Translations under genes and position numbers: made by a program
Shown here: one piece after another, positions 8,754 through 58,658 of the stretch
How the letters are laid out: each line of letters starts with the position of its first letter
Position numbering within the stretch: position 1 is the first letter of the stretch
From: an uncultured Clostridia bacterium
GTDB lineage: Bacteria > Bacillota > Clostridia > Christensenellales > Borkfalkiaceae
Length of the DNA stretch: 64,000 nucleotides
Assembly: GCA_947632195.1 (NCBI GenBank)
Contig: CANROE010000003.1
Coordinates: 1-64,000, forward strand
Reading direction: 5' to 3'
Notes under the pieces: model-generated
What the model was told of the DNA's origin: nothing
Databases searched by the model: none
What the model saw: only the letters and a program-made list of their open reading frames with translations

Positions 8754-8763
8754 AGCCACCCCC

Positions 8764-8810
8764 ACCTGTCTCGTTTTACTCGCCACCCGCCCCCATAAAT
8801 GGGGGCAGGT
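8764..8810. repeat. Family C palindromic repeat (47 bp)
   Basis: acctgtctcgttttactcgccacccgcccccataaatgggggcaggt; related 47-bp copies at 28786 and 37588. Confidence 0.8.
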
Positions 8811-12705: not shown

Positions 12706-12963
12706 ATGTTTCGCATTTGGGCAAAAGTTTTGAAAGAGGGACACATCATCCGCCAAACGACCTACGAGCGCGAGGAAAAATTTACTTACGCCGATTTTTT
12801 TCGCTATCTCGCCGATATTTGCGACGCGCTCGATATTCCCACGCCCGTTCTTTTGAAACCGCATATCTTCAACTATGCAAAGTTCCGCCATGTCGTGTTC
12901 CGCCCCGCCGATTTTATGGAGACGGTGAGTTTCGATAGATTGGTGCTGGAAAATATTGGGTGA
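12706..12963 (+). CDS. Conserved hypothetical protein (85 aa)
   Basis: MFRIWAKVLKEGHIIRQTTYEREEKFTYADFFRYLADICDALDIPTPVLLKPHIFNYAKF; sits directly after the promoter. Confidence 0.75.
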   Translation: MFRIWAKVLKEGHIIRQTTYEREEKFTYADFFRYLADICDALDIPTPVLLKPHIFNYAKFRHVVFRPADFMETVSFDRLVLENIG

Positions 12964-12964
12964 G

Positions 12965-13296
12965 TATTCACGAAAAATCTTTTGCTACGCAAAATCTTTT
13001 TCCGTGAGGAAAGGAGCGTGAGCGCCTTAATTTGTTCTTCCTCTCGTTCGCCTTGTCTTACACTAAGCCGTAAGAATGCGGCAAATTGTGGGCGCTGCCG
13101 CAGGGAAACCCTGCTCCGCGCAGTGGATTATATTCACGAAAAATCTTTTGCTACGCAAAATCTTTTTCCGTGAGGAAAGGAGCGTGAGCGCCTTAATTTG
13201 TTCTTCCTCTCGTTCGCCTTGTCTTACACTAAGCCGTAAGAATGCGGCAAATTGTGGGCGCTGCCGCAGGGAAACCCTGCTCCGCGCAGTGGATTA
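12965..13296. repeat. Exact tandem duplication, 2 x 166 bp (family F)
   Basis: Units 12965-13130 and 13131-13296 read identically; a third diverged unit starts at 13297. Confidence 0.95.
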
Positions 13297-13460
13297 TATT
13301 CACGAAAAATCTTTTGCTCCGCAAAATCTTTTTCCGTGAAGAAACAGGCGTGGACGGTTTAATTTAGTTGTCCTCACGTTCGTTTCATCGGACAAGAAGT
13401 TGCAAGTATGCAACAAATGCTGTCGCCCACGGCGGAAATGAATTCCGCCTAAGGCAACGA
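13297..13460. repeat. Diverged third family F unit
   Basis: Shares the first ~50 bp with units 1/2; its hairpins GTTGCA-AGTA-TGCAAC and GGCGGAA-ATGAA-TTCCGCC occupy the equivalent positions. Confidence 0.8.
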
Positions 13461-13470
13461 TTCTCAATAA

Positions 13471-13676
13471 TGTCATGTCGAGCAACCGAGGAACGAGGTG
13501 TCGAGACATCTCTACCTCGTCGCCACACGCCCGCTTTATACGCTTTCCTTGCGAAAGCTCCGTTTGCGTGCGGTGGCTGCTCTTCCCGAAAAATCTTGCT
13601 CCGCAATCTTTTTCGGGAGCCCTAATATTGTGAGATTTCTCCACGCGGTCGCTCCGCTCCCTTGGTCGAAATGACA
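13471..13676 (+). repeat. Composite repeat: A-type terminal inverted repeats flanking a G core
   Basis: tgtcatgtcga...cgaaatgaca ends; core shared in inverse orientation with 28470-28659. Confidence 0.8.
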
Positions 13677-13715
13677 TTGTTTGGAACAGCGGGACGAAAT
13701 GATAAAACCCTTTCC

Positions 13716-27048: not shown

Positions 27049-27774
27049 TTACTTCTCTTCGAGCGTGACGTCGATATAATTCGTCGGGTCTACCGACTTG
27101 CCGTCGAGCGTCATTTCAAGGTGAAGGTGGGTGCCGTCGTTTGCCTCGGTGCCGTACGCTTCCGCCACCCGTGCGATGACGTCGCCTTGCTTGACCGTAG
27201 CGCCCTCTTTGAGCGAGTCTACGGGCTCTACAAAGCGGTAGGTGCTCTGCACGCCGTCCGCATGCTGTACGACCACGAGATTGCCCAATTTATCGGAAAG
27301 ACTGATCTTTACCACCTGTCCGTCCGCCATTGCCCGAACGTCCGAACCTGCGGGAGCGGCGTAGTCCACTGCCTTGTGGTAATACCACTTATCGAGGGTG
27401 GTGTTCTCGTAGATCTTGAAATACTCCACCGAACAAGTCTTGACGTCCTCGATGGGAGAAATAAACGCAACCTTGGGACCGTCCGTGGGTTCGTCGTCCA
27501 CGGGAGGAGGGGTTTCGCCGCCCGTGGGTTCGTCGTCTACGGGAGGAGTTTCGCCGCCCGTGGGCTCGTCGTCGACAGGGGGAGTTTCTCCTCCCGTGGG
27601 GGGATCTTCGCTGTCAATGGGCGGGGTTTCAAGTACTTCGCGTCCGCTGTTTGTCACAAAGTATGCGGTGAGCACGATCGCCGTGATGAGAAGAAGCGCG
27701 CAGACCGCAAGCACAATGGAATAGATGATCTTCTTTTTTCTCGAAGTAGGTACGGTATTTTCCTTTTCTTTCAT
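27049..27774 (-). CDS. Membrane-anchored M23-family (LytM) protein with repetitive linker, SpoIIQ-like
   Basis: N-terminal TM; PPVDDEPTGGET repeats; YYHKAVDYAAPAGSDVRAMADGQVVKIS...GTHLHLEMTLDGKSVDPTNYI. Confidence 0.85.
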   Translation of the reverse strand: MKEKENTVPTSRKKKIIYSIVLAVCALLLITAIVLTAYFVTNSGREVLETPPIDSEDPPTGGETPPVDDEPTGGETPPVDDEPTGGETPPPVDDEPTDGPKVAFISPIEDVKTCSVEYFKIYENTTLDKWYYHKAVDYAAPAGSDVRAMADGQVVKISLSDKLGNLVVVQHADGVQSTYRFVEPVDSLKEGATVKQGDVIARVAEAYGTEANDGTHLHLEMTLDGKSVDPTNYIDVTLEEK

Positions 27775-28469: not shown

Positions 28470-28659
28470 TGTCATTTCGACCGAAGTCGCAGGCAGTGTG
28501 GAGAAATCTCGCCTTATCAGGGTTCCCGAAAAAGATTGCAGAGCAAGATTTTTCGGGAAGAGGAGCCACCGCACGCAAACGGAGCTTTTCGCAAGGAAAG
28601 CGTATAAAGCGGGCGTGTGGCGACGAGGTAGAGATGTCTCGACTGCGCTCGGAATGACA
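28470..28659 (-). repeat. Second composite A-G-A repeat (inverse of 13471-13676)
   Basis: tgtcatttcga...gagaaatctc - core - gagatgtctcga...ggaatgaca; core shares gcacgcaaacggagcttttcgcaaggaaagcgtataaagcgggcgtgtggcgacgaggtagag. Confidence 0.85.
28525..28557. repeat. Hairpin with tandem G.A mismatch (H1)
   Basis: CCCGAAAAA-GA-TTGC aga GCAA-GA-TTTTTCGGG; complementary arms apart from GA opposite GA. Confidence 0.9.
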
Positions 28660-28785
28660 TTTGAGAATGGCTCCTCCTCAGGAGGAGCACCGAGAAAATA
28701 AGGTGCCCCCTTCCCTACCCTCCCCCCAACAAGTTGGGGGGAGGCGAGTAAACCCCCTCTGTGGGAGAGGCATCAAGACAACCCC

Positions 28786-28832
28786 ACCTGTCTCACTGCG
28801 TGAGCCACCCGCCCCCACAAGCGGGGGCAGGT
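28786..28832. repeat. Family C palindromic repeat (47 bp)
   Basis: acctgtctcactgcgtgagccacccgcccccacaagcgggggcaggt. Confidence 0.85.
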
Positions 28833-31147: not shown

Positions 31148-31185
31148 TGAGATTTCTCCACGCGCTTCGCTTGGTCGAAATGACA
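31148..31185 (+). repeat. Family A repeat
   Basis: tgagatttctccacgcgcttcgcttggtcgaaatgaca. Confidence 0.85.
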
Positions 31186-31313
31186 TATTGGGGACAGCGG
31201 CTCGGAATGACGCAAAAGTTCGCCCTTCGCAACATAAAATGTGCAGGCGGGGCAAAACGACCCTCTTGTTGTGTCGGACAGGGTGACGTGATAAGAACGC
31301 GTGCGCGAGGCGT

Positions 31314-37570: not shown

Positions 37571-37587
37571 TTGAAGTATGTGCCCCC

Positions 37588-37634
37588 ACCTGTCTCGCTT
37601 TGCTCGCCACCCGCCCCCACAAGTGGGGGCAGGT
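37588..37634. repeat. Family C palindromic repeat (47 bp)
   Basis: acctgtctcgctttgctcgccacccgcccccacaagtgggggcaggt. Confidence 0.85.
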
Positions 37635-47751: not shown

Positions 47752-47847
47752 TGTCATTTCGAGTGGAGCGTAGCGGAATCGAGAAATCTCAACATTATTA
47801 TAATGCAGTAGAGATTTCTCCACGCGCTTCGCTTGGTCGAAATGACA
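47752..47847. repeat. Head-to-head pair of family A repeats
   Basis: tgtcatttcga...gagaaatctc-aacattattataatgcagta-gagatttctc...tcgaaatgaca. Confidence 0.85.
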
Positions 47848-47873
47848 GTTTGGAAAGGGCGTTTTGTTTCTCT

Positions 47874-54434: not shown

Positions 54435-54458
54435 GAAAAAATTTCCACATCACTTGCC

Positions 54459-54580
54459 TTAGGCGGAATTCACTTCCGCCGTGGGCGACTACATTTGTTG
54501 CACTCTTGCAACTTATTCTCCGACAAGGCGAACAAGAGGATAAGCAAGTTAAGGCAAATATGCACGTTTCCTCGCACAAT
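54459..54580 (-). repeat. Family F repeat copy
   Basis: gccttaggcggaattcacttccgccgtgggcgactacatttgttgcactcttgcaactt; inverse match to 13390-13456. Confidence 0.85.
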
Positions 54581-54624
54581 TATTTTCAAAGTGAGATTTC
54601 TCGACTTCGTGCTTCGCGCTCCGC

Positions 54625-54686
54625 TACTTCGCCTGCGGCTCGTGCCGCGCTTAGAGAATCAGAACTGCGCGCGGGGCGAAATGACA
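54625..54686 (+). repeat. 62-bp repeat (copy 2 of 3)
   Basis: tacttcgcctgcggctcgtgccgcgcttagagaatcagaactgcgcgcggggcgaaatgaca, identical to 54-115. Confidence 0.95.
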
Positions 54687-54749
54687 ATTAGAGCGATTTG
54701 CGCATAGCACAAGGAAAAGAATTGTGCGAAACTAAAATCACTGCGCGTT

Positions 54750-54867
54750 GGAAAACCACGCTTTTCCATAAGCGCACCCAATTTGTTGCATACTTGCAAC
54801 TTCTTGTCCGATGAAACGAATGAGAGGATAACTAAGTTAAGGCGCAAACGCCTATTTCCTCACGGCG
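54750..54867 (-). repeat. Family F repeat copy
   Basis: ggaaaaccacgcttttcc, gttgcatacttgcaacttcttgtccgatgaaacgaatgagaggataactaagttaaggc. Confidence 0.8.
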
Positions 54868-54885
54868 TTTATTTTCGACCGACAC

Positions 54886-54937
54886 CCCTTCCGTCTCCTT
54901 CGGAGACACCCACCCCTCCAAGGGGTGGGCAAGGGGG
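54886..54937. repeat. Family D repeat
   Basis: CCCCTT-cc-GTCTCCttcGGAGAC-ac-CCACCCCTccaAGGGGTGG-gc-AAGGGG. Confidence 0.85.
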
Positions 54938-54960
54938 AGGAAGAAAAGAAATGCGTGAAC

Positions 54961-55506
54961 TTATTCAAATTGATTCGCAATAATATCCGAAGTGAGGCGG
55001 GCGAGTTTGACTGCGGACGACTCCATGATCGCCCCTTCGTCGGTGGACAAAAGCACCACCGCGCCCAAACAGTCCCCGCCCGCTACGACGGGCACGATGA
55101 CCTGCGCCGTGACCGTAAGGTCGCTGTCCGTGGCGATGGGCAGTATGTCTCCCCCCTCCGCCTTGCTCGCAAGATAGCTCCTGCGTGAGAGCATGACCTC
55201 CGTCATTTTGTCGGAGACCGACTTGCCCGCAAGCGACTTCTTCCCCGCGCCGCTCGCCTGCAAAACGCCGTCCGTATCGCAAATGACCGCAAGATAGCCG
55301 CTCTGTTCGTTCAAAGACTTTGCCGTCCCCTTTGCGAACTGTTCGATGCTCGCGATGGGCGAATACTTTTTGAGCATGAGCTCGTCGCGGTCGGTAAAGA
55401 GCTCCAAGGGATCCCCCTCCCGAATGCGAAGCGTTCTCCTTATTTCCTTGGGGATGACGACCCTCCCGAGCTCGTCGATCCGCCTGACAATTCCCGTTGC
55501 TTTCAT
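54961..55506 (-). CDS. spoVT: Stage V sporulation protein T (AbrB plus GAF-like)
   Basis: MKATGIVRRIDELGRVVIPKEIRRTLRIREGDPLELFTDRDELMLKKYSPI. Confidence 0.95.
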   Translation of the reverse strand: MKATGIVRRIDELGRVVIPKEIRRTLRIREGDPLELFTDRDELMLKKYSPIASIEQFAKGTAKSLNEQSGYLAVICDTDGVLQASGAGKKSLAGKSVSDKMTEVMLSRRSYLASKAEGGDILPIATDSDLTVTAQVIVPVVAGGDCLGAVVLLSTDEGAIMESSAVKLARLTSDIIANQFE

Positions 55507-55668
55507 ATAAAACCTCCGTGTACTTTCAATATGCGGAGTTTTTTGGGTTTCTATGCAAAATTTTGCGTCCGCGCATTTTCCTCTTCCCATTGACAAAAAA
55601 TGTTTTGTTTTTTATAATTTTTTTGTAAGATTTTGCCTTGCAAGTTATCTTACAGACGGAAACGTGCG

Positions 55669-58485: not shown

Positions 58486-58589
58486 GTGTTGCTCCTATTT
58501 GGTGTTTGCGTTTGGTTTTAAGCGTACTTGGACGTAGTAAGATTCCCTCGGGAAATTGCCATGTCGGACTGCATTATTGCTCATGCGGC

Positions 58590-58651
58590 TATTTCGCCTG
58601 CGGCTCGTGCCGCGCTTAGAGAATCAGAACTGCGCGCGGGGCGGAATGACA
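58590..58651 (+). repeat. 62-bp repeat (copy 3 of 3, two apparent substitutions)
   Basis: tatttcgcctgcggctcgtgccgcgcttagagaatcagaactgcgcgcggggcggaatgaca. Confidence 0.93.
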
Positions 58652-58658
58652 CTTTTCT

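Follow-up and report, generated by a model that had tools for sequence, protein, structure and literature searches.

At positions 12965 to 13460 of the 64,000-nucleotide stretch of DNA analysed here (the window), a repeat occurs in several diverged copies that share an ordered series of hairpins. The question raised by this locus is whether such a repeat is kept for its fold, whether the folded molecule is RNA or DNA, and what the fold would do. Our best reading is that the repeat, called family F below, represents a new family of interspersed repeats built from hairpin modules, similar to BOX and REP elements and located in 3' UTRs.

Architecture of the repeat and its copies in the window

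An element of family F is about 165 nt long and consists, in this order, of hairpin H1, a middle module, H2 and H3. A preliminary description of the window had listed copies with a shared ordered architecture at 12965 (two copies), 13297, 54459 and 54750, the last two being inverse. All of them are present at these positions, and the H2 and H3 stems and loops quoted for them were found to be exact when the sequence was read again. The loops of the minus-strand copies had been given in plus-strand letters (ctct is the complement of agag, and ccacgc that of gcgtgg). The positions of these two copies were right but their lengths were not: they are really longer, reaching about 54453-54959, because each H1 loop holds other repeat modules. 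The architecture as first described was also incomplete, as it had passed over H1 and the stop codon that immediately precedes this hairpin. The features are as follows.

12706..12963, plus strand: upstream gene for a hypothetical protein (codon-usage gene call), stop TGA at 12961-12963
12965..13130, plus strand: unit 1, from sequence comparison
12968..13007, plus strand: H1 of unit 1, TCACG...CGTGA with UC/UC internal loop, from the arm complementarity test on 136 units
13006..13064, plus strand: middle module of unit 1, GAGGAAA...TTAA...CTCTCGTTCG...ACACT, in this genus only a candidate fold
13067..13082, plus strand: H2 of unit 1, GCCGTA-agaa-TGCGGC, from covariation
13091..13123, plus strand: H3 of unit 1, outer GCGC/GCGC and inner GCAGGG-aaa-CCCTGC, from covariation
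13131..13296, plus strand: unit 2, identical to unit 1
13297..13462, plus strand: unit 3, with H1 at 13300-13339, H2 at 13399-13414 (GTTGCA-agta-TGCAAC) and inner H3 at 13431-13449 (GGCGGAA-atgaa-TTCCGCC)
54741..54959, minus strand: unit 4, with H2 stem GTTGCA, H3 GGAAAA-gcgtgg-TTTTCC and an R1 match at 54741-54808
54453..54740, minus strand: unit 5, tandem behind unit 4, with H2 GTTGCA-agag-TGCAAC and H3 GGCGGAA-gtgaa-TTCCGCC

The H1 stem of unit 1 begins 4 nt past the TGA stop of the upstream gene, and unit 4 begins 1 nt past the stop of a minus-strand gene (54961-55596). Unit 2 is a recent tandem duplication of unit 1, while unit 3 has an ungapped identity of 64% to unit 1. The H1 loop of unit 4 holds a nested GGGGTGGGTGTC-type module, and the H1 arms of unit 5, TTTCGCACAATTCTTTTC/GAAAATAATTGTGCGA, flank a D2 repeat (54623-54689). 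The alleles in this genome are discrete, with several H1 arms, three main H2 stems and at least four H3 stems found in many combinations. Head-to-tail arrays with a period near 166 are common. Integron attC sites were considered because they recombine as folded ssDNA; the tandem units of family F are about 8 nt apart with no cassette between them. No terminal inverted repeat was noticed in the units. The spacer from stop to H1 varies between species, and neighbouring species are too divergent 3' of the stop for an empty-site comparison of target duplications.

The window also contains other repeats. A second palindromic family, GTCATKTCGAGC...GTCGAGAAATCTC, is located at 13466-13680, 28498-28643, 31149-31191 and 47811-47853, often after family F, and within it 13500-13556 is a perfect inverted copy of 28587-28643. 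A 67-nt repeat beginning GCTACTTCGCCTGCGG exists at 52-118, 54623-54689 and 58588-58654, one copy being nested in the H1 loop of unit 5. A 52-nt intergenic hairpin repeat, CCCCCACCTGTCTC...GGGGGCAGGT, is found at 8759-8810, 28781-28832 and 37583-37634. There is also a tandem 36-nt repeat at 27467-27613 within a long open reading frame, which is probably a repetitive protein segment.

Covariation and the nature of the fold

From the few copies in the window it had been proposed that the paired arms change together under selection on the fold. In an alignment of 123 distinct copies from the genus, which was fitted to the structure model, 16 of the 17 pairs vary on both sides, and standard pairs account for 95.9% of the paired cells compared with 79.7% after shuffling and at most 64.5% with the partners slid. 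The proposal would have lost its ground if covarying pairs had vanished with more copies; instead, the covariation score is 0.397 against 0.117 for shuffled data. Since the genus alignment is structure-fitted, the sister genus provides a cleaner test. There, 18 copies were aligned by plain MAFFT, and from this alignment RNAalifold predicts five hairpins with 40 pairs in total. Of these pairs, 31 have double changes, and the covariation score is 0.537, compared with 0.177 shuffled and at most 0.134 slid.

For H1 a separate test was performed, which is non-circular as a called gene's stop codon serves as its anchor. In 80 of 136 units the 22 nt after this stop contain the complement of the H1 3' arm, whereas 25 (maximum 36) were expected with the arms shuffled among loci; when the commonest arm is left out, the count is 38 of 80 against 4.7 shuffled. 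Many H1 forms in the genus, read by eye, retain the UC/UC internal loop while the outer stem varies. The preliminary description had stated that the loops drift, and this is partly the case; the H3 loop GCGTGG, on the other hand, is among the best-conserved parts across the genus, together with the unpaired motifs ACAnTAAG and CAAATTGnG.

RNAalifold leaves the middle module unpaired in this genus, and two clear hairpins lie there in the sister genus. Two candidate pairings of the module, GAGGAAA-TCCTC and a hairpin TTGTCC/GGACAA, are visible in many copies of this genome and were rejected as unsupported across alleles. The two extra hairpins of the sister genus were seen at loci L099, L122, L365, L371 and L113 around 1391-1566, and the longer of them has a large loop, often with AAGGGCAAACA.

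As the arms vary as discrete alleles within this genome, block exchange of whole hairpins contributes to their joint change. Nevertheless, the stems keep pairing while the sequence changes, and family F is therefore a strong new example of a repeat that is maintained because of its fold. A coding function, already argued against in the preliminary description, is unlikely because none of the 182 copy clusters falls inside a called gene.

Structured RNAs are usually richer in wobble pairs than this element. The canonical pairs of the sister genus comprise 675 Watson-Crick and only 9 G-U pairs (1.3%), with 5 A-C mismatches. In this genus, H2 has 9 G-U and 5 A-C over 30 distinct stems, and inner H3 has 0 G-U and 2 A-C over 15 distinct stems. 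The strand test, which compares G-U with A-C, gave no asymmetry in H2 and H3 of this genus or in the sister genus. Because G-U is nearly absent, the pairs alone do not separate RNA from folded DNA or from palindrome correction. The initial suggestion of selection on folded RNA or single-stranded DNA is thus borne out for the fold, and the pairs themselves do not favour RNA. It is the orientation and the place behind genes, described below, that favour the transcribed strand, i.e. RNA.

Occurrence, position behind stop codons and turnover

The element recurs far too often for chance. In this genome, an assembly of 1.78 Mb in 48 contigs with a completeness of about 90%, BLAST gave 67 matches to the unit, and an HMM aligns 68 copies and fragments across its retrieved loci. 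With a covariance model of H2-H3, a tool that the preliminary description had suggested, the element was detected in 84 of the 103 genomes of the genus, all compared as incomplete MAG assemblies, often with tens of copies apiece. In the sister genus of the same family, the element exists in 4 sampled genomes, one with 44 copies. The model gave no copies in about 230 other genomes of the order. As far as searched, family F is confined to one genus of uncultured gut Clostridia and its sister genus; the carriers with a name are MAGs of uncultured Clostridia, most of which derive from samples labelled Lapin, and include one BRZ series. Rfam 15 gave no match above the gathering threshold and only chance-level scores at a relaxed one. 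A search of 2.9 million viral contigs with an exact pattern found no copy, and blastn against phages and plasmids gave no match. No description of the repeat was found in the literature searched, which covers few subscription journals.

The first units have their 5' end a few bases from the in-frame stop codon of a co-oriented gene. An in-frame stop lies at most 15 nt upstream of 49 units, while the 45 units without one are largely tandem ones, and all three stop codons are used. The rule applied to REPs near stop codons, a hairpin at most 15 nt from an upstream stop, thus holds for family F. The neighbouring genes were taken from our own codon-usage calls, which replaced a naive longest-ORF context that was too noisy, and the counts rest on retrieved loci, which are biased toward good model matches. 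From this genome, the stretches at matches were used together with two neighbouring stretches of the contig that holds the window. On this basis, the 5' neighbour is co-oriented in 143 of the 182 copy clusters and opposite in 28 (binomial p 9e-20), and some of these 28 may be gene-call errors. The distance from H2 to the gene end peaks at 90-110 nt, which corresponds to H1 touching the stop; longer distances are consistent with modules nested in the H1 loop. Four other intergenic repeats of this genome served as a control: of their 58 cases, 0 were at most 12 nt from a stop, compared with 29 of 49 for family F (Fisher p 2e-13), whose other cases were largely tandem units. The start of family F within a few bases of the stop of a co-oriented gene, unlike the other repeats of this genome, is newly found here.

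There are 93 clusters that have both a co-oriented gene on the 5' side and a called gene on the 3' side; 71 of them are followed by a co-directional gene and 22 by a convergent one (raw counts). The distance to the downstream gene is widely scattered, whereas the 5' end is fixed at the stop. The upstream genes, as judged from recognisable sequence, presumably include the housekeeping genes ffh, rpsP, lepA, recA, trmD and rlmH, and many others. Since they are so many, family F does not represent a single regulon. At locus L009 (G000 C24), family F arrays flank rpsP on both sides, between ffh and the next gene, within what is usually a single operon. At locus L122 of the sister genus, the open frame of the upstream gene seems to enter H1 and to end in its left arm, so that the element may supply the stop codon of this gene.

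At the window site (the stop of the gene 12706..12963), the element is present in this genome (G000) and in G006, G023 and G121, where it begins 2-5 nt after the stop; seven other relatives lack it. Behind rlmH all five of the closest species carry it, each in a form of its own, and the other species examined lack it; behind rpsP it is found in 7 of 11 species, G000 included. In the sister species G006, about 18 of the 25 stops that match the element-bearing genes of G000 are followed by an element or by an H1 left arm when inspected by eye, and a script recovered nine intact G006 units from the same 25 gene pairs. Similarity at these nine matched sites is 0.71 in the middle module and 0.78 in H2-H3, compared with 0.70 and 0.78 for unmatched ones (permutation p 0.35 and 0.50), while the genes at the compared sites are 88% identical. 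Therefore, the places are largely inherited while their contents are replaced, either by copies exchanging sequence with one another or by insertion time after time, two routes that these data do not separate. At genes that bear the element in some species, many other species are without it, and so no single site of family F is essential.

Proposed action, alternatives and known systems

We hold with moderate confidence that family F is a multi-hairpin 3' UTR repeat acting in cis on the upstream message. The proposal takes up the observed fold, position, orientation, tandem arrays and retained places with replaced sequence, to which an effect on the message would be added by analogy, because REP hairpins at most 15 nt from a stop act so in E. 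coli. The copies would be renewed as those within one genome exchange whole hairpin modules, and the H1 loop would take up insertions of other palindromic repeats. The element would be transcribed behind the gene, and the hairpin right after the stop would then act on the upstream message; ribosomes might be released or stalled at the stop, and the message might resist 3' exonucleases or be uncoupled from the next gene. A bolder extension, which we regard as unlikely, is that the stop codons of many housekeeping genes might be fixed docking places for exchangeable hairpin cassettes across the genus, the place being inherited while a genome-wide pool keeps supplying new sequences and the fold has its effect on the upstream message. 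If this were true, the structured modules would be interchangeable, and their shuffling would tune mRNA ends.

A purely selfish mobile hairpin is a possible but doubtful explanation. Such an element would fold as ssDNA or a cruciform for its mobility, its place behind stops would be merely harmless in a compact genome, and its RNA would be functionless. It is in agreement with the strict Watson-Crick stems without strand asymmetry, the tandem arrays and nested modules, the differences in presence between species and the rapid sequence turnover. However, tolerance alone leaves the 143:28 orientation bias unexplained, the other repeats of this genome do not adjoin stops, and the phages, plasmids and viral contigs searched contained no match. 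The Y1 (RAYT) transposase (PF01797) is the usual partner of REP-like elements; it is absent from G000 (an assembly about 90% complete) and present in only 27 of the 103 genus members, and was rejected as the driver of family F, being neither in this genome nor general in the genus. Template switching in replication (quasi-palindrome correction), by which the arms would change together without selection on the fold, seems to us quite improbable. It could account for the rarity of wobble and half-changed stems and for whole stems varying as blocks within one genome, but the stems, with their conserved loops and internal loops, are retained in both genera, one step passes by way of a standing T-G intermediate (GCCGTA/TGCGGC, in 33 copies), and palindrome correction would not put the element behind stop codons.

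Hairpins directly 3' of genes and in the gene direction also bring to mind a transcription terminator or attenuator. This is very unlikely, as H1 is followed by GAGGAAA with no T run, a terminator scan gave on the plus strand only a weak 5-pair match at the unit end and none at H1, and the elements sit between ffh and rpsP and between other co-directional genes (71 of 93 clusters). The strong conserved fold would also suit small RNA genes in their own right, or riboswitch-like leaders 5' of the downstream gene, which we consider extremely improbable: the region has no sigma-70-like promoter, no Rfam family corresponds to the fold, and it is the upstream stop, not the scattered downstream gene, to which the element is fixed.

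The usual description of interspersed repeats in bacteria is that of loosely placed parasites. Family F joins very strong covariation in two genera with a strict rule of place and orientation and fast sequence replacement at inherited places. With its large natural data set, one can ask whether structured repeats have a function when they stand at mRNA ends, how hairpin modules exchange without an obvious transposase, and what a post-stop hairpin does to termination and mRNA decay outside Enterobacteria.

When compared with known systems, the small dispersed repeats of cyanobacteria resemble family F as small palindromic repeats inserted in the loops of other structured repeats; they are much shorter, and we know of no stop-codon rule for them. 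ERIC and Correia elements are palindromic repeats that are transcribed within operons, as family F would be, and they can change the stability of mRNA, ERIC doing so in one orientation (cf. PMC3049150). They are, however, long single imperfect palindromes with terminal repeats, of another architecture and in other hosts. BOX of Streptococcus pneumoniae is the closest structural analogue, being a modular interspersed repeat with tandem modules and a predicted RNA fold, which is transcribed as an operon extension, as family F would be, and is sometimes located at a gene 3' end (PMC3049150). BOX is, however, found preferentially between convergent genes, and its distances to genes tail off gradually (PMC3049150), whereas family F has its 5' end fixed at the stop, a strong orientation bias and no apparent convergent excess in raw counts. 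The REPs of E. coli are single palindromes, only some of them near stops (PMC12306157), while family F strings three to five hairpins together, has conserved single-stranded motifs and is without a Y1 transposase in this genome. Both are palindromic repeats directly behind stop codons, and REP hairpins at most 15 nt from the stop codon were reported to cause ribosome stalling and lower expression, an action on the upstream message that we propose for family F (PMC12306157). By this analogy, the REP near a stop codon would be the closest functional counterpart of family F.
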